Source: Terramyces sp. JEL0728 (Eukaryota; Chytridiomycota; Chytridiomycetes; Rhizophydiales; Terramycetaceae). Taken from it: a stretch of DNA of 64,000 nt. This document shows, piece by piece, positions 1 to 64,000 of the stretch; positions within the stretch are counted from its first letter, which is position 1, and the number at the start of each line of letters is the position of its first letter. A model generated the notes under the pieces. That model made no database searches and was not told the origin of the DNA. It saw only the letters and a program-made list of their open reading frames with translations. Location of the stretch: contig JADIIU010000039.1 of NCBI GenBank assembly GCA_027603945.1, forward strand, positions 1 through 64,000. The letters are read 5' to 3'. Both the position numbers and the translations under genes were made by a program.

Positions 1-824
1 GAGTCTTGATGGTATCAACTGGGGCATTGAACAACGGGCCGCAGGCACCAGAGATGAAACCGATCATAGCGGTTTGGTAAGCTGGTAACGCTTCCAAGCT
101 TGGTTGGTACTGTGATGCAGCGTTTTTCAAGTATTGGTAAACGGTAAAGTTGGCGGCTTGGTTAGTTCCTTGAATTAGTATTGTTTAACCTTGACGAATG
201 ATTGTCAAAGTAACACCCTTGTACAATGAAGCGATCCCTTCTTCTTTTACCATCACATACGCACAGTGGGCTGCATTTCTGTATTTTGGAACATCAAGAG
301 GATCAGTCATGGAGTGTCTCTGCGCTTGCAAACGGATCTTGATCACATCCATTGGTGTAACAACCATCACTGATTCCGTTGCACCGGCTCCTAGCCCAGC
401 TACACATTAATCTAGCAAAACCTAAAAATATCCCAGCAGAGGAAATATATCCAGTCTTGTCTGTTAATTTCTCCTTGTAATATTCAAATGAAGAAAATCT
501 AATCGCCATCTTTGGAACAATTCCAGTAACTACAGCTCCTAACCCTTTATACAAAGATAAAAATCCTTCCTTTTGCACAATTGAAATACCAGTCCCAATA
601 AAACCAACTCTTTTTGGCTTGGTAAGAAAAAAAAGTACCTTTGCAGCATCTGCAGCTGCACTTCCCACTGTTTTTGTTCTGATTTGCCTCTCACCGCGCA
701 ATTGCAAACGAACCTTGATTGTATCCAGAGGGTGACAAGCTAATGCTTCGCAACAACCGGCGATACCACCAGCGAGCAAGTGAATACCTAGATTCTTTTT
801 TGGTTTTTTTTCAGTTGCAGGCAT
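1..824 (-). CDS. SFC1: Mitochondrial succinate/fumarate-type carrier (C-terminus outside window)
   Basis: Member of the mitochondrial carrier family (SLC25), predicted to exchange dicarboxylates such as succinate and fumarate across the inner membrane. The start codon at 824 opens a short lysine-rich head followed by three carrier signatures: HPLDTIKVRLQ, TPMDVIKIRLQ and, at the window edge, APVDTIKT. Stretches such as YKGLGAVVTGIVPKMAIRFS match yeast Sfc1/Acr1 more closely than citrate or ornithine carriers. Introns are at 618-638 (21 nt), 400-421 (22 nt) and 169-189 (21 nt). The first is a multiple of three without a stop, so it reads through as seven extra codons, but family alignment shows it is an intron. 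The last third of the protein lies beyond base 1. Substrate is inferred from similarity. Confidence 0.88.
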
Positions 825-1009
825 TATTGTAAAAAATAGGACAATGGAGTTGTTGGTGATCATCCACAAGCCACGCGTTACGTTAGTGAATACCACATGC
901 CAGTGGAGTGGTTTAACGTGAAATAATCAAGGGATACGGCTCTCGCTAAATTGGTTTGCCTTGTAATACCACAAAGATGTTTACGCTTTCAGGATGTTTT
1001 ACCAGATAT

Positions 1010-1738
1010 TTATTTTGATAATTCAACATGCCATTTAATGGTACCTGTGACTTTGATTGGAAACCCTTGTTTAATAGATACCCTCCAGCCCAACGACGTG
1101 AAATATCCCTCGTACGCAGCATTCAAATCATCCGCAGTTAAATCCCGCAACCGATTCCAGTATTGACGTTCCACAGATATTTTATTTTTAGGATTCTCTG
1201 CGGGTATAATAACTCTCTGGTTCATCTTTATTGGGAAATCTGGAATCAGCTTCTTGATGGTTGAAATTGCAAACACAGCGTGAGTGAAATTATCGCAATC
1301 GTAGTGCCAGCCATTGAAATCTGCAAAGGCAAGTTGATTATCAGGCACGATTTTGAAACTGCTGATCCCAGTTTCAAAAATTAATCGTCCTTTGCAATCC
1401 AATAATCGATACCATTCAGCAACTCTTTCTTGGTTGTGGAACATGTATCTCCAAGTGCTCCAATCAATAATAATTTCCCTGAATATACTAGAGTTTAAAT
1501 ACCCAAGGGCTTTTAGGTTATTAAAATCCATCCATACATGAGGCCGATCTTCTTTAAAGACACCTCCAAACCTATCCATAGCCAGGTGTGAGTGACTGTC
1601 GGTCCACCACGCCAAGCCATTGCCCCGACCGACTACAATCGAATCAAACTTGCTTTTCCATTGCTCATGGGATGGATGTGACTTGTTGGAATCGAAAGGA
1701 TAAACTTCATGCCCAAACCGACCCAATTCATCCTCCAT
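1010..1738 (-). CDS. Conserved hypothetical protein, possible methyltransferase fold
   Basis: Uninterrupted 242-codon gene that I do not recognise with certainty. The chosen start at 1738 opens MEDELGRFGHEVYPFDSNKS; an upstream in-frame start near 1789 would add 17 residues rich in Cys and Phe and looks less likely. The middle contains a pattern like the second half of class I SAM-dependent methyltransferases: a hydrophobic strand ending in Asp (REIIIDWSTWRYM), then a helix with EWYRLLDCKGRLIFE, which resembles the common RLLKPGGRLIFE strand. A clear glycine-rich SAM motif is not visible. Trp and Tyr are frequent. It lies in tandem between the carrier and eL39 on the same strand. Another enzyme with a Rossmann-like fold is possible. 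Confidence 0.6.
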   Translation of the reverse strand: MEDELGRFGHEVYPFDSNKSHPSHEQWKSKFDSIVVGRGNGLAWWTDSHSHLAMDRFGGVFKEDRPHVWMDFNNLKALGYLNSSIFREIIIDWSTWRYMFHNQERVAEWYRLLDCKGRLIFETGISSFKIVPDNQLAFADFNGWHYDCDNFTHAVFAISTIKKLIPDFPIKMNQRVIIPAENPKNKISVERQYWNRLRDLTADDLNAAYEGYFTSLGWRVSIKQGFPIKVTGTIKWHVELSK

Positions 1739-1858
1739 ATTAAAAAAAAAGATGCAAATTCTACAAGCAGAATGCATCGTTAATAACAAAAATCCTTATA
1801 TCAAACATTTTGTATTAAAATTCTACCCAGAATCCAATACACACATGAATATAATCGT

Positions 1859-2364: not shown

Positions 2365-3684
2365 ATGACAGAAGAGGAGAGAAAATCAGAGGATTCGACA
2401 GAAACCAGAGCAAGCCAAATGCTCCACCACCAACCTTCGTCTGACGATATACCACCCATCCCTCCACTATCAGCCTTAATAGAAAATATTAATCGCTCAT
2501 TCGACAAGGAATTAAACTTGAATTTAGTTACAAATACAGTAAGACCGACAGATGATTATGGATTTTATTTGGACACAAAAGACTGCACTCCTCATGTAGA
2601 ATTAAGGTACAAGAGCCTAATATAAAGCGTTAAACAAAAAAAGAATCTCACTAGCAAGGAGAATGAATGGATATCGTTATTAAGCAACTGGGACCAATCT
2701 ATAAGAAAGAAAAAGAATAAAGTAGCTGCTATTAATAAAGATAAAGAAAATGTGTCGGCAAGGAGTCCCAGATTCATTACGAGCGCAAGTCTGGCAGAAC
2801 CTTACAGGATCAAGCAAAAAGAAGATTGTGGGGAAATTCAATGTACTGTTGATTAACACAAGGAATTACGGTCGCGGAGTGATAAACCGCCAATATTTGA
2901 TATTATAGAACGGGATATACATCGATGTTTTCCAAGTAAAATATTTTTAATTACAGCCCATGTAATGTTTTCAGACGCAAATGGAGAAGGGTAATTTATT
3001 GATTTATGCAGTCAAAAGAACCTGCGCGATGTGCTTCGAGTGTATGCGTTGTATAACCCTGCCTTGGGGTATTGCCAAGGAATGGGGATGCTTGTCGGGC
3101 TACTACTAATGCGGATGAGTCCGGAAGTAAGTCAAATTAATATCAGGATGCGTTCTGGATGCTGGTTGTTATCTTGGAGAACTACATTCCGGATTATCAT
3201 TCAGAGAATTTGTATCAGTTACGAGTAGATGCAGCAGCATTTGAATTGTGCTTGAAAAAGTTCCAGAGACCTCTTGCAAGGCACATGGTAATTTCCTGTT
3301 GATCTAGCATGAACTAAAGCCGCTAAACTACATGACACAGTGGTTCCTGACTCTGTATACTATGACGCTGCCATGGAGCACAGTTCTTCGATTGTGGGAT
3401 ATGTTTCTTCACGACGGTGCCAAAGCACTATTCAGGGCAGGGATTGGAATCCTCGCCCCTAAAAAATGTACAGCTCATTAACCTCAGCATATATAATCAA
3501 GTACTGCCCCACATCGTCGGATATACTAGAGTATCTCTTTGCATTGCCGAAACAAGTAACGGACGCGGACGAGTTTATTGAAGAATGTTTAAAGATTAAA
3601 CTTGGACATAAAGATTTAGATAAGATGCGCAATCAAGTAAAGATGGCTCATAGCTCACTGGATAGTGGCGTAAACAAACGATAA
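2365..3684 (+). CDS. TBC-domain Rab GTPase-activating protein
   Basis: A 385-residue Rab GAP, expected to switch off a Rab GTPase in membrane traffic. It is spread over nine exons joined by eight introns of 19-21 nt: 2607-2627, 2722-2740, 2843-2862, 2936-2956, 2991-3011, 3127-3146, 3288-3307, 3468-3487. After splicing the TBC motifs appear in order: RQGVPDSLRAQVWQNL, IERDIHRCFP (the arginine finger region), YNPALGYCQGMGMLVG (glutamine finger) and MTQWFLTLYT...VLRLWDMFLHDGAKALFR. Both catalytic fingers, R of IERDIHR and Q of YCQG, are present. The N-terminal 90 residues are polar and probably disordered. The target Rab cannot be told. The stop is directly followed by TAATAAA. Confidence 0.92.
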
Positions 3685-3798
3685 TAATAAAGCATATAAC
3701 TATACGGTGATTTTCGACTATCATTTGTTTTGGGATCGTACTAGCTGTCAGTTCAATTGCAATAAAATATAATTGATGAACTTTAGTTTTTCAACAAA

Positions 3799-6700
3799 AT
3801 GTCCAGAGATCAGCGACCCAGCTGGGAGGTAGACATAATTAGAAATCTGAATGCCAAAGTTAAAGTAATTCAAATATTAATCAAGGACAAGAACAATGCT
3901 CTGTCTGATCTGAGACAGTGGGTAAACGAACCAAGATCGCTGGGAAGACTTTCAGAGTCTGGTTGGGAAAGTCTCCTTACCAGTTATATTACGTTTATTG
4001 AAAAGGAAAGGGAACAGCTTAAACAAAAAGTGAAAGCAAATAATAGACCGGCAATTAATCACATTGCATTAGTAATTGGAATATTCAAAGATATAGTAGT
4101 GTTGGCTTCGCAGGAACTGCCAATTGTATTGAATAGCAAGATATTAAAGTTTATTGTACAAACATTGAATATGAATCAGGATGAGAAACTAATTACAGCA
4201 CCATTTACAAAATGCCTCGTTGCCATGTGTTCACAGCGAGTATTCAGAGAAGTAAGCGTATAATAATTTAGCGATTGGATGTAAAGGAATGGCACTTGAT
4301 TGTGGATTACTGTATGGACTTTTTCCTTAAAGAATCGGAAATACAGCCCACGTTTGACCGAGCAGATCGTAGAACGGAATGGTACAATTAATATTAAGCT
4401 AGTCTCGATTTAGCAACTTGTTTTTCAGCTATAGTAGGAGCAACATTTGCAAACTCGGTCATCACTGAAGCAAACGAATTGTTAACATTCGTCTCTCAGT
4501 ATATTTCACTATATCAAATTGAAAATCTATCCTTTGAACAATTACTAAACACTTCAATCAAAATATTGCTATTCCTGGATATTGATAACCTCGATCTTTC
4601 GTTTGCATTTTTGAAAGCAATATTTCACAGATTGATTGACCTGTACTCTTCAAAGAATGACAATTTACGCCTAGCTATTCTCCGGATATTCAAGATTTAT
4701 ATAGCGATTGGAAATCAACGAGATGTCGAAGAAGAGGGGCCAAATTTCCTAAAGAACTGTCAACGTTTGATAAATCTGATGGCCTCACTGGAAAAACAAC
4801 CGCCGATTATTCCACTTGGACATATTAGTTTGTTGGACGAATCAATTTCAAATCACCATGCTTGTTCTGATAGCACTGTCCTTTCATGGACTTACATTAC
4901 CCTTATGGCAGAATTGTGTTTTTTGGAAATTCGAAATCCAAATGAATTTAACAGTCAAAATACCCCAGATCCAACGGAAAGACCAAGAAAGAAATCCAAG
5001 GTCGACAAAGGAGCTTTCCTCACACGGCTTCTCAACAGCGGAGACGTCAATTGCCAAATATTTGGACTGCAGATACTTGTCGTGCTATTAAAGCTGTATC
5101 CCCAGTCAATGAAAGGGATTTTGAATATGTACTGTAATGAATTGTCTCTACTTTTTAGTAGCCATGATGGCAATGTCCAGCAAAATGCCGCGCTGTGTCT
5201 CTGTATAATTTCAAAGCAGCCCACACTATTTCTGGAAAGCTTTGATTCCCATTCTGTCTTTGATACTTGCTTGAACAGACTCGTTGCATTAGGAGAATGT
5301 TTACGCGCAACGATCCAGTTAATCACATTTTTCATAGAACAGAATCAAATCCCGTCAGAGAAATTGCAAGATCTGGTGGATTTCTTTACCTCTATTGAAT
5401 CATGTGTTTTGAACAACCAAGGATCGAAATGTTTGGCAAAATTGCTCTCCCATCCAAGTGTGCTGGATAGGAATATGTATCAGAAAGTGGTGGATACATT
5501 ATTCAATAGTCTGCAGCCCAGTTCAGCGCACTCTTCTAATGTGCCTTTTCACGAATTTATGATTTCCACGATGAACTACTTGTTTTTCGCAGACGCTGAA
5601 CCACAGCGAGACACGCAGATGATACTAGAAGAAAAAAGATTATTTGACTGGGAATTCCAGAAATTGTATGAAAGATTGTTGTTTGTCTCTGGAACAAATG
5701 GAGACCTGCTCACGCAGTGTTTATACAAGGAAACGGACACTCCTGTAATTGTTCAGCAAGATGGCAAAGAACGGTTAATTGCTCTATTAAAAGAAAAGAT
5801 CGATGGATATATTGGGATATTAGACACAATCTTAAACGATGAACAACGATTTTTATGCTCCTTGACAATTGCACAAACTATTCAGTGTCTCCCTAATGCT
5901 GTGGATATTGCTGAAAGGTCTAGAGGTGAATTTAATCTTCTATCGGCACATCCTATAAACGCAAGCATAGATAGCGGATCTTTTCAACATTTGGATTTAT
6001 TGCAAAGTATTTCCAAAAAGAATACAACGCAAAAATCATTGCTATGGCCATTTAACGAAGATTTGACTCTTCAGGTGCTCCTTCAATTAATCGATATCAA
6101 AGATGATTCTAATCTCTCGCCAACAGACTCTCAGTTTTCTGATTTTATTTCAGATCGAAAAGCAAGTCATAAATTGAATTTATTTGAAATTACAAACTAT
6201 GGGAAAAACATCAATTTTGAAGAGTTATCCAATTTTGACAAGAAAATCAATGTTCTGGTAAGGAGTTTGCGCACCTTGGAAAAATCTACCTTTAAATTTA
6301 CAGAATTTAGAGATATTTTCAAAGAATATTTAACTATTATGATTGAATCAAAGGAGTTTGAAATGAACTGCATCATATTTGGCAAATATTGCAAAGAAAT
6401 GATGGAAATTTTTGAATTTGGTAATTTACCTTTAATAATTAGATTTTTGGTTGGTGATACTTGACAAATTAAAAGAGAAGCTTATGAAACCGCCACTGGA
6501 TGGTAGCTATCTCTACCGACAAGTCTGCATAAAGTTTCTGGCTTTTTCCTTCCAGAAAGTGCGTGATGACTTTGATATTTTATCTCTGAAAAGCAGTTGC
6601 GAAAAGCTGCTCAACTATTTGATTAGTAACTACGAACTCTATCCGACTCCTATAAAACTGGATATTTCAAGACTCCTAATCGCGCTTGCAATGAACCCCA

Positions 6701-9700
6701 GATTGAAGGTGATTGCTAATACATGCAATCCAGTTCCAACGTTCTTGGAAAGTGTTCGGTTTGATGTTTTTGAATACAAATTTCAGCTTGCAGTGGAATT
6801 GTTGCCCATTCTTTTCAAATATGCCAGTAGTTCTCAATGCCGCAAAGTAGTTGACTCTGTCAAGAAATATGTGGTTACTGCGGAAACAAATGATATCCAG
6901 AATATCAGCAACTCGCTAATATATGGATCTATACTTCGAGCTATGGGTTCTGTGGATGAAGATGTTATTGTATCTCTTTTACAGTTAGCCGCTGATCAAC
7001 CATCATTTGACACCATCCCATTCCTATTTGAAAAAATATCAAAAGAGTTTGGATTCCGATCTGTATTGGATTTACTTGAAATCTACCTTGACACAATGCT
7101 GCACAACTGGACGCTGGATATCAACGAATTTCCAATGTATCTGTTCAACTGTGAAACGCTTGACGATTTCACAAAAAGGTATGCTGAACATATTGCACTG
7201 TACTACTTCAAGAACAGCCATTTCGAACAGATTCTAAAGATGGCAGATATAATACCAATTTCCGAGTTATTGAAAAAGGTGTTTGCTAAAATTTACTCTC
7301 ACAGCCTTATCCACAAGGTAATTGCTTCTTAACAAGACAATCAATGGAGAAGAGTTTTTGCGCAAATTAGTTGAATTAGATTCTAAAGTTTTTTTGGATG
7401 TTGTATTGGAGAATATTGTTGCAATCACATTTAATCAGTTGAAGATGGCACATGGGATGGAAGCTTGCGACCCGAAATTGCTGCCTGAGTTACTTCAAAA
7501 TGGTTTGCATTCAATTGGCGTCCAAATTATCAACAAGCCAGGCACTAATAATATTCAACAGATACTAAGCGGGTTGGAATATCTGCATGGAGCCGACTTG
7601 GAGAATCTAAACGGCAAGCTCTCACTATACACGCTTTACCAGCTGGTACATCGGATGAATGTGTATTTAAGCCGGCAATCGTTTGTTGATAAACAACTTT
7701 CAATCATTAAAAACGGATACACAATTTTGGTGTTGATAGCAAAAAAGCTAATCACACATCCTCTGGTTTATCAAACTATTATGCAAAATTTGCTCAAATA
7801 CGTTGGGATTCCAAAATTAACCAACCCCATTTGCCAGTTAGTCAACTACCTGACAAATCTGTGTGTATCACAGGGAGACTATGCATCATTGACTCAACAT
7901 GCTATTTCAAATGTTTCAACCCTTAGCTCTTATTGTTATTTATCGGATGGAAACAAAGATATGATTGTAGATTCAATTGAAAAAATTGTAACGGGCTCAA
8001 CAAATTATCTGGATCCACTTCAAGCTGAATCAACAGTGAATTTACTTTTGGTGGGGTTGGATCCTGAAATGGAATGCTTTAAATCTCTATTTGAAAAATT
8101 CAATGTTAAAATCACTAGCGTTAGTGTTTTGGTAAATTGGGTTACTTTGCTTGATTGTAATTCGTTCGTTTCTAAATCGCCTTTCTTGCGACTATCCAAA
8201 GCATTGGACTTGCAGGAAAATATGGATTTCATCAAAGAATTCAACAAGCACGACTCTTTGATCAGTAATTTGAAATCAATAGTCCAGAGTAATAACCCAA
8301 CCCTTCAAGATATAAAGCCTATCGCTGCCGGAGCATTTGCTAAAATCTTGAACTATTTTAGGACTGATAGCTACCATGAAGATCATTTCGAATATCGAAC
8401 CCCAGACTCTGAATGTTATATAGGATGCAAAGTAGCCCTGGAAAGATTATATGATTATATCTTCAATCCCGACCTGGATACCGTTAAATGCTGCTATTCT
8501 GTATTGTCCAGTATCGGCTCTCTTGCAGAAGCCCAAGATGTGTTTGGAGAGTTGGAAGACAAGATCAAAAGCCATTTGAATCTTTTTCAATCGGAAACCC
8601 CAATTCCGATATCACTGAAAAACGAATACCCCAATATTGACGATCGTTCCATCTGGAAAAGTTCTGGCAAAACTAAAGAGGAATGGGTCATTATATTTAC
8701 CAATTCTTTGCTCAACAGCTTTGATTATCCCGGCTTTTTTTTGTGCCTCAGTCCAATGTTTAAAGTACAGCCGCAATATGCAATTGTTATGCTTCCATAT
8801 CTCGTACACTATATCTTGAACACAGAATTGCAAAAAGCTCCCAAACAATCCAAGTTGATGATTAGAGAGATTTTGTCAAATGATATCAAAGAATTCTTTA
8901 TCGAGGCACAAGAAGATGATATCGTTGCAAAATCAATCTTACTGGATGTCGTTATGGTATGTAACTCCTAACCCTAGTTCCTGTTTAAGACCAAGCCTCC
9001 AATTGCATACCATCAATGGCTAGAGTTGGATTTCCCTAATTTAGCATCAGCATCATTGCATATCGGGAATCACCTAAATGCGATATACTTTATTGAGCAG
9101 TACTATTCGCAAAACTCCAATGCCCACTCCATACCGTCTGCAATTTGGCAGCACCTTCTTGATAGCTATCGGGGGTTGCATGATACTGACGGTTTTCACG
9201 GGACGATTTCTTCTTTGGATTCGAACGGCGTCAACTTTTTGTCTTTGATACAGCAGCAAGAAGCTTACGACCAAGACTGGATGAACCTCTTTTCTTTCCA
9301 GGACGCTTTACACCAGATTCAAAATCCTGGCTTTTATTCCGAAGATCTGATTGAGAGTTTATCAAAGTCTGGACATTATCAAACTGTAAACCAATTGATG
9401 ACGAACAGAAAGCTGAATGACGACCAGCTTGATAGCTTTGGTTGCATGTGGAGACTAGGACAGTGGTCGACAGACATTGCTGGAAAGGATAGTGCAATTG
9501 GACAGAATATTAACAGCGACTTTTATCAGCTATTATATCAATTGGAGCACTCTTCTAACATTCCCAAACTCCATCAAGACATTGACACTGCTCTTGTATC
9601 GTATAGCAATTCGAAAACCAGCTTTCCAGACCTGATCTCGATTTTAGAAATTAAGGAAATTGTCCGGTTCAAAGAGCAAAAGGAAGAAACGAATGTTAAC

Positions 9701-12181
9701 GAATTATTCAACATCTGGACAAACAGGATCAACAACCTACTACTGGACAACAAGTTTGAAGAAATAGAACAAATTCTTTCAATCAGAACAAGAGTAATGG
9801 ATATTTTGTTGCACGGAAAGGAAAAGTTGAAGCCGAACAGTGCTGCTTTCGGATCACTACAGCTGCAGTTTAAAAATCACCTGTATAAAGTTGCCGAGCT
9901 TGCAATAGACAATAAATTCTTGGTATTGGCCAGGAATTCGGAGCTGCAACTTGAGAATATGCAAAGTGTCTCATTAATGGATTCAATTAAAACAAAGATC
10001 TTGTCCATCAAAATTGAATGGGCCCGAGATCACAAAAATGTTGCATTAAAGTTTTTTGACAACCTGCTCAATACTACGATTGATAATAATCAGATCGAAC
10101 CTTCCCTGAAGGGTGAAATGCTACATCTTCACGGTATGTGGTCTAAATCCAGCCGCAAATCTACCCCAAAGACGATTGTCAAGAACTTTTTGCAACCAGC
10201 ACTAAAAAAAATTGAATCTTCAAAGATGGTTGACAGCGGAAAGTATTATTTTGATCTTGCAAACTATTGTGATGAAATCTTCAATACCATGCAAAATGAT
10301 GATACCCACACGCGCTCTGTAAAGTTATTGCAACGTAGAAAGTCTGATCTGGACGAAATGCAGCGTTTAGGTGAAAATGCAAAAAAGAGCAACTATATAA
10401 GGAAATTGACCAAGCAAATCGAAATTGATGAGCATGACATTTCCCAATACGAACTAGAGAAGGACCGCTTTCTGTTGCTCAGTGTTCAGAGCTACATGCG
10501 CAATCTTGCAAAATCGGATCTGAAAAAGGAGCATTCAGTGTTTAGATTATGCTCTCTATGGTTTTCAAACTCTACAAATTTGGAATTGAACTCGTTCATC
10601 GAGGGTAACTTTGCTCAAATTGCGACAAACAAGTTTTTGATCCTAATGCATCAACTGTCAGCAAGATTTGCTGTTAAAAACCTGGCACCTGATTTTTTTG
10701 CCGCAATTAGTAGTTTGATTGAAACAATCGTAATAGACTATCCTTACCAGGCACTCTCGTACATTTTGGCATTGAAGAATGTTGCGTCCGAAAAAAGCAC
10801 ACAATCCACGTCATCAATTTCCAGCGATACAATAGATACTTTCATCTCGAAAATTCGAAAAGAACCCAATATGGAAAGGATTGTTTTCAACATGGAAAAG
10901 CTGTTTAAAGGGTATATTTTGGCAGCCTATCAATTGGTGCCGAAAAACAGTAAGAAATTAACATTGGATAGCACTTCAATTCTTTTAAAAATCAAAGCAG
11001 AAGCCAAGATTCCGGTCATTACTGTTCAGCAAAATACTTTATTGCCAAAGGCATATGATAATATTATTTATATAGACAGATTTGAAAATACATTCAACAT
11101 GCCTGGTGGAATCAATGCTCCAAAAGTGCTAAAGTGCGTTGCTAGTGATGGCAAAATATACCGGCAGCTGGTAAAATCACGAGGTAAGTCAAACTAAGGT
11201 AGATGATTTGAGACAAGACTCTGTGCTTTCGTCAGTGTTTAACGTAGTGAACATGTTGTTGTCAAAACAAATCGAGTCTAGAAAACGAAAGCTCTATATC
11301 CGAACATACAAGATTGTTCCGTTGGCAGCCCAAGCAGGAGTGCTTGAATGGGTTGATGGAACAGTTCCAATTGGCAATCTGCTGATGCAAAACCATCCCA
11401 ATCCAAAGATTGTGGAAGAGTTATCGCGTTTTAGGACAGTTATGAAATCTGAGCACGACAAGAAAGGATCTACAATAGAATCAAAATTAAAAGTGTTCAA
11501 GAAAATTGAAAAGGCATTTCCTCCAATTTTCGGCTCTGTGTTTTTTGAATTATACAGAGATCCAAAGATTTGGTACGAGAATAGGCTCAAATATGTTCAA
11601 AGTGTCGCTGCAAGCTCCATTGTGGGGTACATGCTTGGAATCGGAGATAGACATTGTCAAAATATCTTGTTTGACAAGAACTCGGCGGAAGTTATCCATA
11701 TTGATCTTGGAATTGCATTTGATCAAGGAAAATTGCTGACTACCCCTGAGCTAGTGCCTTTTAGACTTACAAAGAATCTTGTGCACGCGATGGGAATCAC
11801 TGGGGTTGAGGGTGTGTTCAAGAGGGGCTGCGAAGAAACTTTAAAAGTATTACATACCGAAAGCGACTTTATTTTCACGCTGTTGGATGTTTTCAGACAC
11901 GATCCTCTTTATTCTTGGTAATTTAGGCTAACTCTAGGTCGGTATCAGCACATAAACTGAAGAATATCCAAAAGGATGAGCAAGATGACGATGCAGACTA
12001 TCAACGGTACTTTGACAAAGAAAATTCCGGAAATGAAGAAGCTGATATTGCTCTATTTGGTGTCCGCAAGAAGCTATCTTCAAATCTTGGCGTTGAATGT
12101 CAGATTGAAGAGTTGGTGAATAGCGCGACAGATGCGAATAACTTGTGCAGAATGTATCCTGGATGGCAAAGCTGGATATAA
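3799..12181 (+). CDS. TEL1: Tel1/ATM-family PI3K-like DNA damage checkpoint kinase
   Basis: Giant 2746-residue protein kinase that responds to DNA double-strand breaks and guards telomeres. The N-terminus matches the ATM/Tel1 TAN region (LSDLRQWVNEP near residue 40), followed by about 2200 residues of helical repeats and a FAT region. The kinase core has KSRDDLRQDSVL, GDRHCQNILFDKN and VIHIDLGIAFDQGK, then a FATC end finishing MYPGWQSWI. The catalytic Asp and Asn (GDRHCQN) and the metal-binding DLG are intact. Seven introns of 19-22 nt: 4252-4271, 4382-4402, 6421-6442, 7318-7336, 8957-8977, 11184-11202, 11918-11937. Each join restores the frame, and the one at 11184 restores the DDLRQD motif exactly. 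RLTKNLVHAMGITGVEGVFK places it with ATM rather than ATR or TOR. Confidence 0.95.
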
Positions 12182-12307
12182 TATACCTTGTAATTTAGCA
12201 ATTTCTTTGAAATATTAAGATCTGCAATAGCTTTTAGCTGCTTTTGCGCTCAACAATTGATCTGGCACGCATATGCAGTTAATTTATGCATACTTTTTTT
12301 GATAAAA

Positions 12308-13064
12308 ATGACAGAGGTGGTAAAAACTACAATTATCAGGGTAAAGAGAAAAAGAACCGAAGATCCACTAGATACTTTGCTGGTAGCGCAAGAAACTGTC
12401 GATAAAAAGGTACTTGCTTGGTAACCAGCTAAAATCATTGCAAGAAGCCAAAGTTTTTAAATTCGTTGAATCGATTGAAACGGCAGCAGTCCAACAACCG
12501 CATCTGCATAATACCATCACAAAAGCTAGAGAATCAGTGAAGCAACCAGCATCAATGGAAAAAAGAAGAGAGATATTGTCTGCGAAACGATTGAAACAGG
12601 CACAAGAAGCCAGATTCAAAATTATAGAAACCAACCGCAATTTTGAAAATATTAATTTAATTGATGTTACAAGGGATGAAGATTACGGATTGGACGACGT
12701 TACGATGAACTTGATGCCAATGGTGAGAGAATATCTTGCAATCACAGAAACAGAGAAACAGCAAGACTATGTTTACGATTTGTACTATCATGATGTGGCA
12801 GCCCCGGTAGCTACAGTAATCATTCTTAACTAGAGGCTCTAGAAACCAATGCAGGAACGTTAGGAATGAATGAAGAGGGACAGATCCTTGTTGATAATAC
12901 CCCAGATTCAGACTATGACAGCGAGGACTCTAACGGTAATATAAACTAATGCAGCCGAGGATTATTATAAAAACGAATATCCAGATGAAGACAGCGGGGA
13001 TGAGTTTCAATTCAATGAGGAAAGTGATGTAATCAGCAGCGAGGATGATTATGAACATTATTAA
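12308..13064 (+). CDS. IWR1: Iwr1-type RNA polymerase II nuclear import factor
   Basis: A 232-residue homologue of Iwr1 (human SLC7A6OS), an adaptor that helps import assembled RNA polymerase II into the nucleus. Evidence is the N-terminal IIRVKRKRTEDPLDTLLV, the central QDYVYDLYYHD motif, and the acidic end with AEDYYKNEYPDEDSGDEF. Introns: 12410-12428 (19 nt), 12816-12835 (20 nt, ending in GAG) and 12936-12954 (19 nt). The middle intron is assigned by frame continuity; its acceptor is unusual, and a 29-nt version starting at 12807 is also possible. The stop codon is 8 bp from the convergent stop of the MMTAG2 gene. Confidence 0.87.
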
Positions 13065-13072
13065 AGCATTTA

Positions 13073-13842: not shown

Positions 13843-13883
13843 TCTGAAAAAAGATCAAAAAATTGGGCTTGAAACTAACTTTT

Positions 13884-43732: not shown

Positions 43733-45649
<1,917 letters not shown>

Positions 45650-53720: not shown

Positions 53721-55172
53721 TCATTCTTCAGGAGGAGGGGGAGCTGGCTGTTGATCTCCAGGCAAGATAGCCCCTGCTACCTTATTCCAGTTTGGAGGTG
53801 GAGCCTGGGCATTCTGGACGTACCCATAAGGACCGCCTGCACCAATACTAGCACTAGCATTCCAACTTGACGGGACAGTTTCAGGTCCAAGGAACGGTGC
53901 GGTAGGAATAGCATATGTATTGGTGCCTCCCAATTCAGCCATAAGATTAGCATATTCATCATCGAGTCTTTGATCACGTTGGTTCGCAGCTTGCAATACA
54001 TTAGGATCGTTCTTATATAAACAATCTACATTAGAAAAACACTACCTCTTGCCAAATGGCCAACACTGTTACAAATTCTACAAACCAAAGTAGCCGTAAA
54101 GTTGGCTGATTCCGTACATTCGAAACGACGGTGGCCAACACCACCACAATTCGTACAAATTTGGTTTTCATCGTCTCTAAGCGTACCGTTAAGCGCTGCC
54201 AGTTCTCTCAATTGATTACGCTTCAGTTCATTGTGCCCTTCGGGAACACTTGTGGCCTATTTTTAATAAACACTTGCCGTTTCAATAATTTTGTTAATCA
54301 TGACAATTGCTGCTTTTACACGATCTTCGGTGTCGCCGCTAACCAACGCATGCAATTCTTCTTCTTCACCTTGCTGGCCACTAGTATCCAATCGAGCTTT
54401 TCCTTCCTTCACAGACCCCTTACCACGAATACTGATTTTGGTACCAGTTTCAGTTTCCATCTTTTTCAGAGTATTACCACGAGGCCCGATGAGTAAACCA
54501 ATAAAGTTGATATCTGGATAGTCTTTAAGTGGAATATAAACCTTTTCAGCCAATTTCGACGGTCTTTTGTAATCCGCAGGAGGTCTAAACCCAATAATGG
54601 TGCGCATCCCTAATTCTACAAGCCCATGTCGCTCATCTTCCAAAATCTTGCGATACCTTAAATCTCTGGTATTGTCTCTTCTTCCATCCGGACCGTACGT
54701 TGGTTCTGGAGATACAGATCTAATAAGTGGAAAATTACCTTTTCTCATTTGGCACATAATCACCCAAACGCAAACGCCGCCCTAATTCTTCAATTCTCAT
54801 GTGAATAATATAGTTGTCAATTTGTTCGTTGGTTAAATCAGATGGCAGTGATGTTGGCAATCCAGGAATATTTACTTTATCATGGACTGATCCCCACCTT
54901 GTTTTACGTCTGGGAGGTCTTCCTTCTCTTTCTTCGTCGGATACAGGAGAGTCGTGATGTTTAACTACTGGCTGTCTTTCCTGTTCTGAATGTCTTTCTC
55001 TTCTTCTGGATGGATGATAATCGTCCCTGGACCTCTTTCTGTCATAGTCTCTTGAAGGGTGTCTGTCCTCTCTTCTACGATATTCACGGTCTCTATCTCT
55101 GTAGTCGTCTCTTCTTATATCCCTAGAAGAATATCTATCGTCTCTCCTGTCCCTATGTCGATCTCTGTCCAT
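53721..55172 (-). CDS. SF1: Splicing factor 1 / branch-point binding protein
   Basis: A 463-residue SF1/BBP (yeast Msl5) that recognises the intron branch point before U2 snRNP. The N-terminus is Arg/Asp-rich, then RKTRWGSVHDKVNIPGLPTS and LTNEQIDNYIIHMRIEELGR lead into the KH-QUA2 domain (PDINFIGLLIGPRGNTLKKM, then LRELAALNGTLRDDE). Two zinc knuckles follow (CTNCGGVGHRRFEC and CRICNSVGHLARDC), and a Pro-rich end. The N-terminal region that binds U2AF65 in other species is hard to identify (RKTRWG is present). Introns: 54720-54738 (19), 54257-54277 (21, GC-AG) and 54026-54045 (20). It matters here because the genome's introns have almost no space between branch point and acceptor. Confidence 0.94.
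54257..54277 (-). other. GC-AG intron of 21 nt in SF1/BBP
   Basis: The frame joins IIET to the conserved SVPEGHN-LKR stretch only if the intron starts with GCAAGT and ends with ATAG. This is the standard rare GC-AG class, with an otherwise perfect donor. A GT donor three bases downstream would need a GG acceptor and is less likely. Confidence 0.8.
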
Positions 55173-55203
55173 TTTTGATTTGCAAGAAAAAATTGATCAC
55201 TGA

Positions 55204-55323: not shown

Positions 55324-55324
55324 A

Positions 55325-56175
55325 TCAGCGTTTTTTATACAAGCAAGGTTTTAGCACAGGCATGCTAGTTCCGTCCTTCTTTTCCGTCTTGATAAAGTCT
55401 AATAAAACAAACATTTTGTTCTTTTCATCTTTTTTGCAAAGCTTGAACCCCAAGCATTCGACACCTGCAATGAATTCATTCAAATCTGAAATCCGACTTT
55501 TTACTTCGCATACTTTTAATTCCGCACTACATTAATCACAGATTACTTTTTCTTTAGTATTCTGTGGGCTTCATTCAAAAAATCTGCAAAATTGGTTCCC
55601 ATCAACGATAAACAGAAAATCACAATATCTACAGATGCTTTCTTCAAAGGCACTCTGGCAATATCGCATGCGGTAATGAATTCGTTCCGAGCCACTAAAT
55701 CGAAAGAATGAATCTGAAGCTGTGCGTGCAATTCGCGAGCAATTTTGGCCTCCCCACATCCCATATCTGCAACAACAACATCTTTCTTTTGTCCAAGATA
55801 ATCTATATAAATATCGACAGGGTTAGTAGGCCAATCTACCACTTGTGAAGAAAACCCTTCATGATAAATGTCAAATAATTCTGGCTGTTTTTGGAACAAA
55901 TCGATGGCCGTTTTTGACGTGGTAGTGTACAGAGTTTCATTCAGCCATCTGAATTTCGACCCGGTCAGTTTCTTTTGGTACTTTTCTTGCAGTGATGTGA
56001 GTTTCTTTTCAACTTTTTGAGGTTTCTTTATTTCTTTCAGAGTTGGTTTTTTGGATTCAGTTTTTTGATTTATTGTGGTTACTGGCTTTGAGTTCTTTTT
56101 TTCAGTTTCATTTTTATTCTGTTCTTTGATATCCTTGGATTTACTCAGGACTTTTTTGAGTTTGTTTTTCAACAT
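55325..56175 (-). CDS. RRP8: Rrp8-type 25S/28S rRNA adenine methyltransferase
   Basis: A 276-residue nucleolar methyltransferase that makes m1A in large-subunit rRNA. A Lys-rich head precedes the conserved core: GSKFRWLNETLYTTTSKTAI, VVDWPTNPVDIYIDYLG, VVADMGCGEAKIARELH (SAM motif), HSFDLVARNEFITACDIARV and VIFCLSLMGTNFADFLNEAH, ending VLKPCLYKKR. One intron of 20 nt lies at 55527-55546. The start could instead be the ATG at 56202, adding nine residues. The stop is one base from the convergent small-peptide stop. Confidence 0.94.
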
Positions 56176-56338
56176 TAAAAAAAATATGGGTTCCACACCC
56201 ATCTAATAGAAGGATAAAATTGGATGGGTCTGCAATCACTCGATTGAAATCTGCTAGGATGATTTCCACTCGGAAATTTCTTATTCTCACTGATGGCCGT
56301 TCTAGAATACTCTTTCCTAATTTGAAATTGGGTTTCCA

Positions 56339-57256
56339 ATGAAAAAAAAATATATTGATAGACACCTTGAAATTGCAGTCAACAATAATATCCTGAGTAG
56401 GAAAACAAACAGAGCCAAGCGTAAACCCTTAAATATCGACCAATTCATCCACATTCTCCAACTGGAAAACAAAAATATCGTGGGATTATTTCAGCGTATT
56501 TTGGCATTGGTCAACATTGTACCTTAATTTCTAATTCAGAACCAAAGGAATTTGCTCGAATTGACTCTGTTTTCAGTAAAATACAATGAAATCGTTAGCA
56601 TTAATGACAAATTGGCCGGATTCATTTCGCTATATCCGTACAATGAGGATTCAGAGTTATTGGGATACGCTGGCTTGGTTTCACTGCTGGTGTATCAGAA
56701 AAAGAGTAAATGATTGCTAATGGCAGAACAGTCGCGATATATCACCCAGGCAATCCAATTATTGAAATCTTCAATTTCGCTCTCCGCCAATATGATGTTT
56801 ATGAATATTCTCCAGGATATAATGAAGGAGGATGATTTTGTGGAATATCTATCCAGACTCCCCAGGGATATCAATGTGCTATTAAAAGTTGGGGAAATGA
56901 AAAACGATTACTCAACGCTAATTGAATTCGATCCAGTGTGCGATTTGAAAATATTCTTCAGCCATATCAATCAGTTGGACAAAAGGACAATGATTACGAA
57001 GCTAGCTGATAGGCTGGAATATGAAAATAATGCACGATGCTGGAAATTGCTGATTACCAAAGTGCTGGAAGATTCCTACTACGAAACGGATGAATGCAGA
57101 ATAATATTTGCAGATAGGGACTGGTGGGGCGAATGCTTTTCCGGGATGTATTTCTTTATCTTGTTTGATCTGCTTGGTAAAAAGCCCCGAAATACGATAG
57201 ATGGTGTAGATGATTTGGAGATATGGGAATTGTATAAAAACGAAATATATTATTAG
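56339..57256 (+). CDS. Hypothetical helical protein
   Basis: A 291-residue protein not recognised. It is mostly helical and rich in Leu, Ile and Asn, with possible repeat-like helices (NLLELTLFSVKYNEIVSIND, then YITQAIQLLKSSISLSANMM). Acidic residues increase toward the C-terminus, which ends DLEIWELYKNEIYY. Introns: 56519-56539 and 56706-56726 (21 nt each), both needed to keep the frame. It is divergent from RRP8. A HEAT-like scaffold is one reading, without specific evidence. Confidence 0.7.
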
Positions 57257-57484: not shown

Positions 57485-58880
57485 ATGTTATCTCGAAACG
57501 ACGATATCAAATTAGGCGAAGCATCAAAACCATCCAAGCCAATTGCGACCCATTCATCTGCAGATGTGATGGCGATGGAAAATACCTATGGTGCGCACAA
57601 CTACCATCCACTACCTGTCGTCTTCCACTCTGCTCAAGGGATTTATGTTTGGGATCCTGAAGGCCGCAAATACATGGACTTTTTATCTGCTTACTCTGCA
57701 GTCAACCAAGGACATGCTCATCCTAAAATTATTAAAGCTCTGACTGAACAAGCAAGCAGATTAGCCCTCTCATCTAGAGCATTCTACAACGATGTCTTTG
57801 GTCCTTATGCCAAGTATATCACCGAGGTAATTATTGATTTATTCTAGTATTTTGGGATGGATATGGTTTTACCAATGAACACTGGAGCTGAAGCAGTTGA
57901 AACTGCAATGAAATTAGCTAGAAAGTGGGCTTATGTTCACAAACAAGTTCCGGAAAATGAAGCGATAATTTTGTCTTGTACTGGTAATTTCCACGGAAGA
58001 ACTATTGCTATTGTCTCCATGTCCACAGATCCTTCATCTACCGATGGGTTTGGGCCTTTTGTCCCAAACATCGGCTGTATCTGTCCAGCAACAAAGAAAC
58101 CATTGGATTACAATGACTTGGACGCGTTGGAAGCAGCATTAAAAGCCCATCACAAGAAAGTCGCTGCTTTCCTGGTTGAGCCAATCCAGGGTGAAGCCGG
58201 TATCTTTGTTCCAGATGAAGGATATTTGGCAAAAGCATATGCATTGTGCAAAAAATACAATGTTTTGTTTATTGCTGATGAAATTCAGACTGGTTTAGCT
58301 AGAACTGGCAAGCTTTTGGCCATCGACTATGACGGTGTCAAACCTGATATCCTTATCTTGGGTAAAGCACTATCTGGCGGCATTTACCCAGTTTCTGCAG
58401 TCTTGTCCAGCAAAGAAATCATGCTTACCATTAAACCAGGTGAACACGGCTCCACATATGGAGGCAACCCACTAGGATCAGCTGTTGCTGTCGCTGCTCT
58501 TGAGGTAATCAAGGAGGAAAGGCTAAGCGAACGTGCATTTGAGCTTGGTGAAAAATTCAGAACTGCTCTGCGCGACTTGAACTCTCCATTCGTCTCTATC
58601 GGTAACTAATAATTAATAGCTAGTTAGAGGAAGAGGTTTACTGAATGCTATCGTTATTGACGAAACCAAACTTAACGGAAAGAGTGCATGGGATATCTGC
58701 TTGTTGATGAAGCATTACGGTCTCTTGGCCAAGCCAACGCACCAAAACATCATCAGATTAGCACCACCGCTTTGCATCACCGAAGCAGAATTGATGACTG
58801 GTGTTTCCATCATTGAACGCGCATTAACAGATATCGTTGACATGAAGCCATCTGAAATTCCTGGTGCTGAACACCACTAA
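57485..58880 (+). CDS. CAR2: Ornithine aminotransferase
   Basis: A 450-residue PLP enzyme converting ornithine and 2-oxoglutarate to glutamate semialdehyde and glutamate. Signatures include [78 protein letters not shown] and the PLP lysine in [15 protein letters not shown]. No mitochondrial presequence is visible, as in fungal cytosolic enzymes. Introns: 57827-57847 (21 nt) and 58602-58623 (22 nt). The stop is 51 bp from the convergent DNAJ stop. In fungi the enzyme is induced by arginine; no site for this was found. Confidence 0.96.
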
Positions 58881-58931
58881 TTTTTTATTAGCCAACTAAT
58901 ATAAATTATTCATCACAGTTTATTGATTATT

Positions 58932-60113
58932 TTAAACGCTATACCAGCCGTTAATTCTTTGACAGTTTGGCATTTCCATATTCTGCGCTCTTTTTAGAAG
59001 GTCTTGGTCTGTCCTAAACCAACTAGTTGCTTGTCTGATGTAGTACGCCTGAGTTTCTTTTTCCTGCCCACATTTTACTCTAAGGTGATGCAAATACTAA
59101 ATTAACGCAACATTACATCTGATTCTACCCTGTTGTTCAATTCGCGCTGTTTAGCAGATGTTCCAAACCTTCTTCTGTACGATTTTGGATTTACATAGTA
59201 CGGAACATTGTGCGGCTCGGAGTGCTTTTCCATAGAGTAGTCATAAGATCGCTGGAATGAAAATGGATCGTCTTCTGCAGTGAATATTGAAAGTCCTGTC
59301 AGAAGGAACAATATTATTATTGGTAATAATTGTAGTAAGGTATGGATACTGCTTCCTTCAGTGCTGTTATATTGTTGCTGTCTAGTTCTCGTTCTGAATT
59401 GTGGCCCGGCATTGAAAGCTCATTAAATAATAAATACCAAATCCGTTTGTGCCAAAACCGCCTCCGAATGCCCCGCCTCCCATAAACATCCTCAATAGCT
59501 CTTCTGGAGTGACTTCACCTTGGAATCCTGGATGGCCACCAAATCCTTGGAATCCAGAGTGTCCGCCAAATCCGCTGCCTCCGCCTCTATTGCCGCTTGA
59601 CTCGCTATCTATTCCAAATCTGTCATAGCTGCTGCGTTTTTGTTCATCGCCCAACACTGTCCAAGCGTGTCCAATAGCTTTAAATGCATCATCCGTGCCT
59701 ATAATAAAACTCTAAATACCAGGAGCACCGCATTTATCTGGATGAAATTTCAACGCTAATTTTCTATATGCCTTTTTAATATCGTTGTCAGAACAACCTT
59801 TCTCTAGACCTAAAATCCCGTATAAATCGCCCTTTGCCTTGTGGGCTTTAATTTTTTTAATTCCCTCCACTTGCTCTGGTGTAAATGGACGATTGGGTTC
59901 TTCTTTCGGTGTGCTTTCGGCTTTCCTCTGTCTGGTTTGCGGTTTTGATTCGGGAATTGTACTGGAAGAAATAAAAGACAACCATTTTTCAGCTTCGTTT
60001 GATTCGCAAAGACGAATACTTTTTTCTGCGAATTTTACTGCTCCTGCTTTATCGCCAGCCTTCCATTTTTGCTTTGAAATATCCAGCGCTTGTAGAGCCG
60101 CATCCTTGTTCAT
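58932..60113 (-). CDS. DNAJB12/14-like ER membrane J-protein
   Basis: A 373-residue Hsp40 of the ER-anchored DNAJB12/Hlj1 class, which helps degrade misfolded membrane proteins. The N-terminus resembles the family ([20 protein letters not shown]). The J domain is at about residues 100-165: [36 protein letters not shown] (HPD present) and DRFG. A Gly/Phe-rich stretch follows, then a membrane segment ([17 protein letters not shown] type, near 59290-59330), and [12 protein letters not shown] of the DUF1977 domain. Introns: 59699-59719 (21), 59419-59437 (19, ending GAG), 59097-59116 (20). Confidence 0.88.
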
Positions 60114-61210: not shown

Positions 61211-61465
61211 ACTTTCTCTTCCTGTACATTCTTTCCTAATTAATAAAGGAAATTAAAATCTCATTTACCTTTTTGAAAGTCAATATCTCTTTGAGTATCC
61301 AAGATATGGAGATTTCGGACACTTGGGCATACCAATAACATGAATTCAGGGATATTAAACGTCAGGCTTGCTATTGCGCAGCAGTCGTGCAATCAACAAG
61401 TTCCCTTCTCTCTTTCATGATTTCAGTGCTAGAATTTGACTGGATTCTCATTTTGTCAATCTCCA

Positions 61466-63235
61466 ATGATCACAACATTTGCAAAGAAACGAAAAATAAT
61501 AAAGCAAGACAGGTTTGATTTATTTCTTCAACAAGAAAAACAAGTAACTGCAGAGGAAGGGGAACCTGAAAGATTACTGTCCAAAGATAAAAAGGCTATC
61601 ATTGATGGTTCAAACCCCAAACGACAAGGGAGAACTAAGGCTCCCAGGAAAGACAGCTTGGCAAGGACACAAGAACAAGTCAAAGTAATGCAAACGGTAG
61701 GAGATCCAGTCCTTGAGCCCCAGCAAAATAAGGATAATCAAATCAATGAACTGCTAGATAAACCTCCGCTGGCAGATGTATTTTCAATGCTGATTTCTCA
61801 GTCTCCTACAAAGAAAAAGAGAAAAGCAGAAATGAAGATCAGAGAAGTTTCTCAAAGCTCAATGACCCAGGATTCTCGAAAAGATGTAGAACTTCCACAA
61901 GAAAGAAACTCGTTTCTAAATAGCAGTCAGACCTCAAGCGATGATCAAGCACATTTAGAAAAGATATTTTTGTCTGGTGCTTTCGAATCAAGATATAAAG
62001 CAACAGAAATTCCAGTTATGAAAAGGAGAGGAAACACTTTTCTCACTGGATCAGACGGATTGAATAGTCAGGGCGATGCTTGCCAATCGCAATCTAACGA
62101 AATGGAACGTGACGATCTCGATGAAACCGAGATCGATGAAGGTTTGGAATCCAGCGACGACGATATGCCAAAGATTAAAGCTTATCATCACCTAAAGGAA
62201 TCCGGAAACAACCAAATGATTCTTGACGAAATTGAATACATTTTCAGCGGCATAAATAGCAAAAGTCTAAAAGTAAAGAGGAATTCGCTGTACGAATTGT
62301 ATTCGAAACTTAAAGACGATTTTATGAACTTGTTTACCATCCATGGATATCTGGAAAAGCTCTTTCTATTGCTAAACAAGAATGTCGATTCTGTATTCAT
62401 TTACTAATGCTAGACTGTAAGAATACCATTGGTTTTGATCATTTGCAAGATTAAAGGAGAACTAAAACAGACCGATTTTTGCCAATGGCTCTTTGACTCT
62501 ATTTCTCTCTGCGAGCAGGGTCTTGGTAAGCAACCTCCCAAAAAGAAACTTGTAGATATAGTGCACAACAGATTTGTTGAACAAGTTGAAATTGATTTCA
62601 AAACTTTAGACATTTGTGAAATATTACTAAAACACCTTTCGATACCTACTTTGAAATTCAACGATATCCAACTGGCGGACAAGCAAGTGGGCTACTTCAA
62701 GCTACTTATTTCTTCCAGATCTGCACTAGTGTATCCAATTATAGTCAAGCTATCAAAATCCTGGAAGCATGCCGATACAATTGTTCCGTTTTATGAATCT
62801 CTGGATGATATGGATATCAGCAGCGACGAGTTCATGGATATTGTTTCGATATTGATCAACCTTTACAGCAAAGACAACGCAGAGATGAAGCTGCCTGATC
62901 TAGACACTGCAAAGTTATTCTCCTATTTAGAACAAAATATTTCAAACGACGCTGTGAATCTTCTGACTTGCTTACTTGTCAATATTGAAACTGTAACATC
63001 ACGAAACTATCCTAAAAAGCAACTTGAAATTCTAAAGAAAAATATGGAAAAGGAGTTCCCTACCAATGCCTACACTAGTATCTTGATGGGCTCGATATAC
63101 TTGCAGCAAAGGTTTACCTTTAATTTGGGCCAAGCCATCAGTCATTTGGAAGACTTTCATCATGTGCAAAATGATATCGGAATCAAGAATGATCAAGTGT
63201 TGGACCTAATCAATAAACTTAAAGATATAGCTTGA
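61466..63235 (+). CDS. WAPL: Wapl cohesin-release factor
   Basis: A 582-residue Wings-apart-like protein that opens cohesin rings to release them from DNA. The N-terminus (MITTFAKKRKIIKQDRFDLF) resembles the conserved start of Wapl proteins, followed by about 230 disordered polar residues. The WAPL domain starts near residue 255: DEIEYIFSGINSKSLKVKRN, SLYELYSKLKDDF, HGYLEKLFLLL. Helical repeats follow. One intron of 21 nt lies at 62393-62413. The length is shorter than animal Wapl but close to fungal Rad61/Wpl1. The stop is 9 bp from the convergent stop of the last gene. Confidence 0.82.
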
Positions 63236-63244
63236 ATATATTTA

Positions 63245-64000
63245 TTATTCAGTGGCAGTATAGTTTGAGCTGTTATTTACGCTGTCAGCTTTAATAGTGA
63301 TTTCAACTTCTTTCTTCAAATCATCTAAGCTTAAATCCTATTTACTGTCCAGAGTAAACCCTGGCTTCAGCGATTGAGGTCGGGGTTTGCCAGTTGCATC
63401 TGCAATGACGATTTGGGGGAAGACGCCATCCTTGGTTGGACCTTCATTCTTTAATTTCTCTTTATCATCAATCAATCTTCTTTTTTCCCGCAATTCTGCC
63501 TTTTGCAATTTCTTTCTCCTTCTGAAATATTTCTTCATGAATATTACATGATGTTTTGGGCCATACTTTACTTCTTTGACTTGGTGTTCCAGCGTTTCTG
63601 TGTCGATACCAAAAAATATTTTTACTTTTCCCAAATCGTGGGAAATATCGGAAGGAAGAGTGAAAATATTTGGTGAATAGTTTGCAAATATTGCTTCGGA
63701 TTCTTTCGAGAGTGCAGCACAGAAACCTAGGTTACTGTGCATTGTTCGGTACGCAATGTCTGTGGTTTGGTCAACGTCAAACATGAGATGCATCCACCAC
63801 ACGTTAATTGAACATAACACTGCTAGGACAATTATCAGTACTTGCGTGAGTGTGATCCAAAAGACAGGCACCATGAATATGCCGGCTCCGATGTCTCCGT
63901 AATATTTGCAGTCCACCATCGCCGATTGGTCATATTGCATCAATACATAGTGACCTGAAGCAGCAAGAACGTTGCTAATCCCCTTCCAAGTCATATTTTC
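63245..64000 (-). CDS. Membrane protein, 5' end possibly outside window
   Basis: A protein of at least 240 residues that I do not recognise. It has a hydrophobic segment near its N-terminal side (IFMVPVFWITLTQVLIIVLA), then a basic, charged stretch (KKYFRRRKKLQKAELREKRR), and an acidic tail ending NYTATE. An ATG at 63994 could be the start, but the frame is open to the window edge, so the beginning is unknown. An intron of 21 nt at 63326-63346 removes an in-frame TAG and continues to a stop at 63245. Confidence 0.65.

Follow-up and report, generated by a model that had tools for sequence, protein, structure and literature searches.

The first 64,000 bases of contig C39 (bases 1-64000; hereafter the window), from an assembly of 15.0 Mb in 231 contigs, carry genes for beta-tubulin, the exoribonuclease XRN2/Rat1, the branch-point binding protein SF1/BBP, the splicing helicase Prp16 and radial spoke protein 3 (RSPH3), among others, that are interrupted by segments of about 20 nucleotides (nt). 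Judged from the DNA of the window and of twenty further stretches, these segments are almost certainly U2-type spliceosomal introns of the ordinary kind, reduced to 19-22 nt throughout the nuclear genome of the organism, a rhizophydialean chytrid close to Boothiomyces. At about 20 nt, they are near the shortest introns known in any organism. The G+C content of the whole window is 0.397, and ARAGORN found no tRNA in its 64 kb.

By two of its spliced proteins, the organism belongs to the true fungi and, among the chytrids, stands close to Boothiomyces (Terramycetaceae, Rhizophydiales, Chytridiomycota). The spliced ornithine aminotransferase, of 450 amino acids, is 95% identical over 100% of its length to that of Boothiomyces sp. 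JEL0866, with Globomyces pollinis-pini as the next named match at 83%; RSPH3 is 94% identical over 84% to the Boothiomyces macroporosus protein, followed by Globomyces and Kappamyces at 75%. After Boothiomyces, the next named matches of the spliced proteins are Globomyces, Kappamyces and Polyrhizophydium. Among the matches of the Prp16 exon protein, the closest is at 86%, the third is the chytrid Homolaphlyctis at 79% and the fourth, at equal identity, is the mucoralean Spinellus. RSPH3 is a flagellar gene that the chytrid, a fungus with swimming spores, has kept. The original prediction, a "fungal-like flagellate", was too cautious in calling a true fungus merely fungal-like.

Length peak and boundary signals

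The final gene model of the window, which contains a length term and uses no homology, called 100 gaps, of which 93 are at 19-23 nt. Two of the seven longer gaps, both in a tropomyosin-like gene, were judged plausible and the other five were judged artefacts of gene merging or misplacement; in the gene of ribosomal protein L39, the model overlooked a clear 47-nt intron that begins right behind the ATG. Since one false call was removed and one XRN2 intron was added, about 93 short introns result, and the window probably holds about 93 short and three longer introns, close to the earlier count of about 101, with some 96 at 16-23 nt. The longer introns that we believe (47; 51 or 66; and 55 nt) sit in the L39 and tropomyosin-like genes, which are probably highly expressed.

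The same class recurs elsewhere in the assembly. The comparison sample comprised twenty 10-kb stretches (L005-L024; 200 kb) from 12 other contigs, making 264 kb with the window. In the twenty stretches, 212 of 246 introns called by the model with a length term are 19-22 nt; with no length term but with site weights taken from the short gaps of the motif-free gene finder described below, 206 of 266 introns in the 264 kb fall in this range (19 nt, 52; 20 nt, 90; 21 nt, 47; 22 nt, 17). Scaling from 58 (no length term) to 212 (length term) short introns per 200 kb up to 15.0 Mb suggests a genome total of roughly 4,000 to 16,000, a rough figure because the sampled stretches lie at contig starts. 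A narrow dominant class at or below about 22 nt, which marks uniform tiny-intron genomes, is found here; the absence of longer introns, which also marks them, is not. The predicted uniformity at 19-22 nt holds for the peak, with a minority of longer introns beside it.

A model-free scan of the window looked for stretches of 19-22 nt that run from GTA to AG and have TAA[CT] close to their end. It returned 45 on the forward and 32 on the reverse strand, whereas ten first-order Markov sequences gave 9.0 per strand on average. Furthermore, a dynamic-programming gene finder, with codon and dicodon scores trained on long open reading frames (ORFs) of the 264 kb, was allowed to skip GT..AG segments of 10-150 nt with neither a length nor a motif term; it peaked at 19-22 nt, a range that took in 29 of the 67 gaps called in the window and 58 of the 125 called on the 12 other contigs. 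The motif T[AG]A[CT] (TRAY) lies 3-8 nt before the end in 72 of these 87 short gaps. Of the 1518 segments in the window that have GT..AG ends and a length of 19-22 nt, true introns among them, 206 carry it, as do 25 of the 85 gaps above this range and 7 of the 20 below it. When all 256 pairs of boundary dinucleotides were tried in turn, 45 of 66 GT..AG gaps fell at 18-23 nt, whereas every other pair gave at most 24 such gaps.

Two lines of inquiry carry no weight here. A gene finder that scored codons only and left gaps unrestricted lacked the power needed and gave no length peak at 19-22 nt. In-frame stops occur in 29 of 31 introns of 21 nt (21.3 expected at random phase) and in 46 of 62 introns whose length is not a multiple of three (41.7 expected); the excess in the former was not used as evidence, because the gene finder sees stop-free introns of a multiple of three poorly.

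Protein junctions and gene models

To examine the joins at the protein level, ten spliced genes with 38 introns were compared with homologues from outside this genome, a junction being counted as gapless if no gap lay within five residues of it. Twenty-eight junctions are gapless, eight are uncovered by the alignments (three in Prp16, two each in septin and XRN2, one in SF1) and two lie in gap-rich stretches. All 28 gapless junctions belong to introns of 19-22 nt, among them one with GC..AG ends (SF1) and one with GT..GG ends (XRN2). The earlier claims that the joins restore conserved motifs and that nearly all ends are GT..AG are borne out to this extent, GT..AG being dominant and these two introns departing from it; the Tel1 intron quoted with them (11184-11202) is present in the gene models.

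Several comparisons were made with solved structures. For beta-tubulin, 434 residues align to PDB 6tis_B without any gap, across three introns. The first five junctions of XRN2 are gapless against XRN2 structures (the last two uncovered), as are all three of DPAGT1/ALG7 against the enzyme 6fm9, the middle three of septin against 5ar1 (the other two uncovered) and all three of the MARK/SNF1-like kinase against MARK2 (5kz7), where one intron splits the DFG motif. In thioredoxin, choosing a 20-nt intron gives an alignment to 2i9h of 96 residues without gaps at 87.3 bits, versus 82.6 bits for a 29-nt alternative. The GC..AG junction of SF1/BBP is gapless against branchpoint-bridging protein 4wan and SF1 7vpx, and its zinc-knuckle junction against 7vpx (the first junction uncovered).

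The remaining genes were compared with sets of homologues. The last three junctions of Prp16 are gapless in 65 of 66, 105 of 108 and 98 of 99 covering homologues (the first three uncovered), the two of ornithine aminotransferase in 119 of 120 and 117 of 118, and the third and fourth of RSPH3 in 120 of 120 and 26 of 28. Separately, a Prp16 relative (P0001; 84% identity over residues 519-979 with no gap, on a 12.3-kb contig) reads through three intron sites of the window gene; intron positions may turn over, or that gene was predicted spliced.

Frame breaks from sequencing or assembly error, mistaken for introns, are a vanishingly small risk. Isolated slips do seem to occur, such as the GT..GG intron in XRN2 and an apparent 1-nt frame slip at 17884-17896 (+) of a PTPA-like gene, which does not represent an intron and could have arisen in assembly. 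Errors would not, however, yield GT..AG ends, a branch motif and a peak at 19-22 nt on 12 other contigs, nor a gapless 434-residue tubulin upon removal.

That the population is real and partly overcalled, with some listed introns being coding or off by a few bases, is a serious prospect, at a little under even chances. One model intron (-15335..15356) is false, being conserved XRN2 coding sequence by homology; other calls remain weak, for example +2722..2740 and -21736..21754; and the final model dropped or shifted 7 of the 84 introns of an earlier one. The motif guided a manual choice of splice positions for the third kinase intron, thioredoxin, SF1 and the fifth XRN2 intron; the final length-term model recovered all except the XRN2 one. 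Five odd introns of an earlier model (14, 15, 15, 17 and 29 nt) became 20, 21, 21, 20 and 20 nt in the length-term model, with junctions that agree with solved homologues. Against this, 28 of the 38 homology-examined junctions are sound, the rest being without verdict, and the peak is present without any length term.

Genes and introns are collected in Table 1. Among them, SF1, the gene of the branch-point binding protein, itself holds the 21-nt GC..AG intron. The cyclase-like gene and the GAF-cyclase gene, both on the reverse strand, are neighbours of similar layout, possibly from a duplication.

Table 1. Genes of the window and their introns, in window positions, with intron length in nt in brackets where listed; "by eye" marks a name judged by inspection
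Gene	Span	Strand	Introns	Remarks
beta-tubulin	48555..50129	-	49925-49944 (20), 49627-49647 (21), 49013-49031 (19)	start moved outward by eye; model start 50057
XRN2/Rat1 exoribonuclease	13884..17386	-	17342-17363 (22), 17039-17057 (19), 16993-17012 (20), 16465-16484 (20), 15391-15410 (20, GT..GG), 14724-14742 (19), 14064-14083 (20)	
DPAGT1/ALG7	23475..24776	-	24603-24624 (22), 24108-24127 (20), 23782-23802 (21)	
septin	18821..19929	+	18863-18882, 19070-19091, 19263-19281, 19551-19571, 19808-19829	
MARK/SNF1-like kinase	43733..45649	+	44222-44242 (21), 44331-44349 (19), 44599-44618 (20)	second intron splits DFG motif; third first by hand, then by final model
thioredoxin	31975..32332	+	32094-32113 (20), 32181-32200 (20)	
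SF1/BBP branch-point binding protein	53721..55172	-	54720-54738 (19), 54257-54277 (21, GC..AG), 54026-54045 (20)	Pfam SF1-HH, KH, CCHC
Prp16/DHX38 splicing helicase	26067..29450	-	28819-28838, 28672-28692, 28390-28409, 27773-27793, 26760-26780, 26596-26615	
ornithine aminotransferase	57485..58880	+	57827-57847 (21), 58602-58623 (22)	
radial spoke protein 3 (RSPH3)	47404..48491	+	47544-47564 (21), 47635-47655 (21), 48061-48081 (21), 48416-48435 (20)	Pfam Radial_spoke_3
Tel1/ATM-like kinase	3799..12181	+	3865-3885, 4252-4271, 4382-4402, 6421-6442, 7318-7336, 8957-8977, 11184-11202, 11918-11937	gene models; PI3_PI4_kinase domain in exon 11175-11921
TBC-domain gene (by eye)	2365..3684	+	2607-2627, 2722-2740 (weak), 2843-2862, 2936-2956, 2991-3011, 3127-3146, 3288-3307, 3468-3487	gene models; final model merged gene with next genes
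gene	12308..13064	+	12410-12428, 12816-12835, 12936-12954	gene models
mitochondrial carrier	1..863	-	169-189	two model pieces joined by eye; Mito_carr domain in ORF 303-926
gene	13073..13842	-	13663-13682	gene models
PTPA-like gene (by eye)	17536..18610	+	17761-17780, 18207-18228, 18276-18294, 18396-18415	gene models, two pieces
protein kinase (by eye)	21488..23314	-	22183-22202, 22033-22053, 21736-21754 (weak)	gene models
gene	24912..25977	+	25180-25198, 25380-25399, 25831-25849	gene model
Obg-like GTPase (by eye)	29464..30763	+	29687-29709 (23), 30111-30130	gene model
tropomyosin-like gene (by eye)	31139..31751	+	31157-31177 (short), 31358-31408 (51; final model to 31423, 66), 31534-31588 (55)	gene models
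ribosomal protein L39	1859..2061	-	2012-2058 (47)	intron right after ATG; Ribosomal_L39 domain; coordinates by hand
gene	35827..36630	+	36174-36194	gene model
cyclase-like gene (by eye)	36693..38953	-	38471-38492, 37774-37794, 37412-37431, 37178-37197	gene model
WD40-like gene (by eye)	39281..41444	+	39824-39843, 40556-40575	gene model
GAF-cyclase gene	41482..43417	-	43000-43019, 41955-41975, 41721-41740	gene model; GAF and Guanylate_cyc domains (Pfam) in ORF 41961-43004
gene	45693..47335	+	46527-46546, 46862-46882	gene model
Sec2p-like gene	50268..52199	+	50349-50369	gene model; Sec2p domain
gene	55325..56202	-	55527-55546	gene model
gene	56339..57256	+	56519-56539, 56706-56726	gene model
DnaJ-like gene (by eye)	58932..60113	-	59699-59719, 59419-59437, 59097-59116	gene models
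gene	61466..63235	+	62393-62413	gene model
gene, cut by window end	63245..64000	-	63325-63345	gene model

Splicing signals and intron geometry

The introns carry the signals of conventional splicing: a 5′ GTA(A)(T/G)T, a branch-like YTRAY and a 3′ site that is mostly TAG. In 210 introns of 17-24 nt from the 264 kb, GT is followed by A (0.90), A (0.65), T (0.50) or G (0.23), and T (0.57), and the intron G+C content is 0.29. A branch A, assigned by a motif search confined to 3-9 nt before the 3′ end, was placed in 208 introns, at position 14 in 81 and at position 15 in 98 (179 of 208 together), leaving 5 nt after it in 97 introns and 6 nt in 82. An Rfam scan of the 264 kb at gathering score gave U2 as its sole match; this small nuclear RNA (snRNA), at C70:14443-14635 (140.2 bits), is canonical and contains the GUAGUA branch-binding box. 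The genes of SF1/BBP and Prp16 both lie within the window. Site consensus, branch-point geometry, restored protein junctions and a canonical U2 snRNA in the genome support the predicted spliceosomal nature of these nuclear introns.

Alternatively, the segments could stay in the mRNA and be skipped by the ribosome (translational bypassing), or be removed by non-spliceosomal RNA processing, either of which is compatible with evidence that is solely genomic. We consider this very improbable, as spliceosomal 5′, branch and 3′ signals are present, longer introns share the same ends (for example, the 47-nt L39 intron) and the genome holds U2 snRNA, SF1 and Prp16.

A number of points weigh against U2-type splicing of a genome-wide tiny-intron population. 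The evidence for splicing consists of genomic sequence and comparison with homologous proteins, and the 200-kb comparison sample was taken at contig starts. In the boundary-pair scan, the raw gain of GT..AG (339) is second to that of the commoner AA..TA (353), so that length concentration, not raw-gain rank, singles out GT..AG. The branch geometry is partly built in by the confined motif search. The RSPH3 junctions at residues 46 and 70, in gap-rich stretches, are gapless in just 44 of 116 and 3 of 120 homologues. The gene model gave at least one ab initio false positive, in XRN2, besides the introns replaced between models, and the 20-nt XRN2 intron added by homology (-15391..15410) ends in GG.

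The snRNA searches add to these points. For U1, no Rfam-model match was found in the genome at E 1e-3, though control genomes gave none either. U6 was not recovered in the genome: Rfam gave only two sub-threshold 27-bit matches, of near-identical sequence, of which L025 looks coding by eye, and a U6 stem-loop pattern gave no match. A U6 pattern with up to two mismatches gave 18 matches versus 16 in a reversed control, and the single 1-mismatch match looks coding.

If U2-type splicing holds, a standard spliceosome would work by intron definition, taking each of these introns as a single short unit, and the resulting lariat would have a loop of 14-15 nt and a tail of 5-6 nt. As the spliceosome is generally understood, U1 and later U6 would pair with intron positions 1-6, and U2 with some seven bases ending at the branch A, so the U1/U6 and U2 duplexes would just fit side by side in 14-15 nt. 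This tight fit would put a floor under intron length and account for the small spread of lengths. Moreover, the branch sequence and the AG are too close together for a polypyrimidine tract to lie downstream of the branch point; recognition is therefore probably by 5′ site, branch sequence and nearby AG as a unit. On this duplex-fit model, introns with fewer than 14 nt from 5′ site to branch A should splice poorly here.

A public protein of a related chytrid bears on how far the trait extends. The B. macroporosus RSPH3 (P0241) starts at a Met six residues past the first intron of the window gene, with exon 1 absent, and carries seven extra residues, GKLSLTI, exactly at the fourth intron (48416-48435); the insert is not present in the Globomyces and Kappamyces RSPH3 proteins. 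Of 41,472 possible codings of GKLSLTI plus the next residue, 3,456 put GT and AG precisely at the two ends of the segment; YTAAC is contained as well in 1,152 of the 3,456. On the simplest reading, the insert would be a 21-nt stop-free intron translated by annotation. More broadly, it is conceivable, with the balance tilting somewhat the other way, that thousands of introns here and in related chytrids have shrunk to the geometric floor of an otherwise standard U2-type spliceosome, with a fixed 14-15 nt from 5′ site to branch A in which the U1/U6 and U2 duplexes lie end to end and do not overlap. B. macroporosus at least would then have the trait too, and public annotation would conceal it by translating some of the tiny introns or losing whole exons to them.

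Tiny introns in other organisms

Introns of this size are known outside the fungi. Those of heterotrich ciliates are 15-16 nt, those of mikrocytids 16-17 nt and those of the chlorarachniophyte nucleomorph 18-21 nt (PMC10245619), the Stentor and Bigelowiella values cited by the original prediction being among them. In Stentor coeruleus, introns of 15-16 nt have their branch A at position 10-11 (PMC9505925). The chytrid shares with Stentor a free-living nuclear genome, very narrow lengths, GU..AG ends, AU-richness, a canonical U2 branch-binding box and a short tail past the branch A (5 nt in Stentor), but it differs in branch position (14-15), in length (19-22 nt) and in being a fungus rather than a ciliate. 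At Stentor's branch position (10), the U1/U6 and U2 duplexes would overlap.

The other systems differ chiefly in lifestyle, compartment or length. Mikrocytos mackini, a reduced intracellular parasite with a reduced spliceosome, has 224 introns of 16-17 nt (PMC10245619); uniform tiny introns with conserved ends are common to both, whereas several thousand introns are estimated here, in a chytrid keeping a flagellar gene. The Bigelowiella nucleomorph, a relict endosymbiont nucleus, has more than 800 introns of 18-21 nt (quoted in PMC10245619 and PMC2222250), a nearly identical length range, found here in a main nuclear genome. Paramecium introns average 24.8 nt (range 20-35; quoted in PMC2222250) and are likewise short and nuclear, yet longer, broader in range and of a ciliate. 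Short uniform introns are not unprecedented in an opisthokont, which tempers the earlier view of them as unusual there: those of the animal Dicyema average 26.2 ± 1.9 nt (n=16; PMC2222250), although they are longer, come from few genes and belong to a parasite.

For fungi, a search of the open-access literature, covering mostly titles and the beginnings of abstracts, gave no report of introns of about 20 nt in a chytrid or any other fungus. The available parts of two Batrachochytrium papers (PMC5364385, PMC3569864) and a Rhizophydium paper (PMC13391722) do not state intron lengths, and those of two surveys (PMC8476143, PMC11649378) name no fungal introns this short. This would thus be a fungal, apparently genome-wide case of a kind of intron already known elsewhere.

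Such a genome has implications for annotation as well as for splicing, as gene prediction may mis-annotate genomes with introns of this size. Genera near this chytrid are listed in a chytrid culture collection (PMC7537106). A comparison set of Batrachochytrium, Globomyces and Kappamyces would serve to ask when and how the introns shrank, and a fungal genome with thousands of tiny introns would be a system for studying the minimum intron that the spliceosome can handle.

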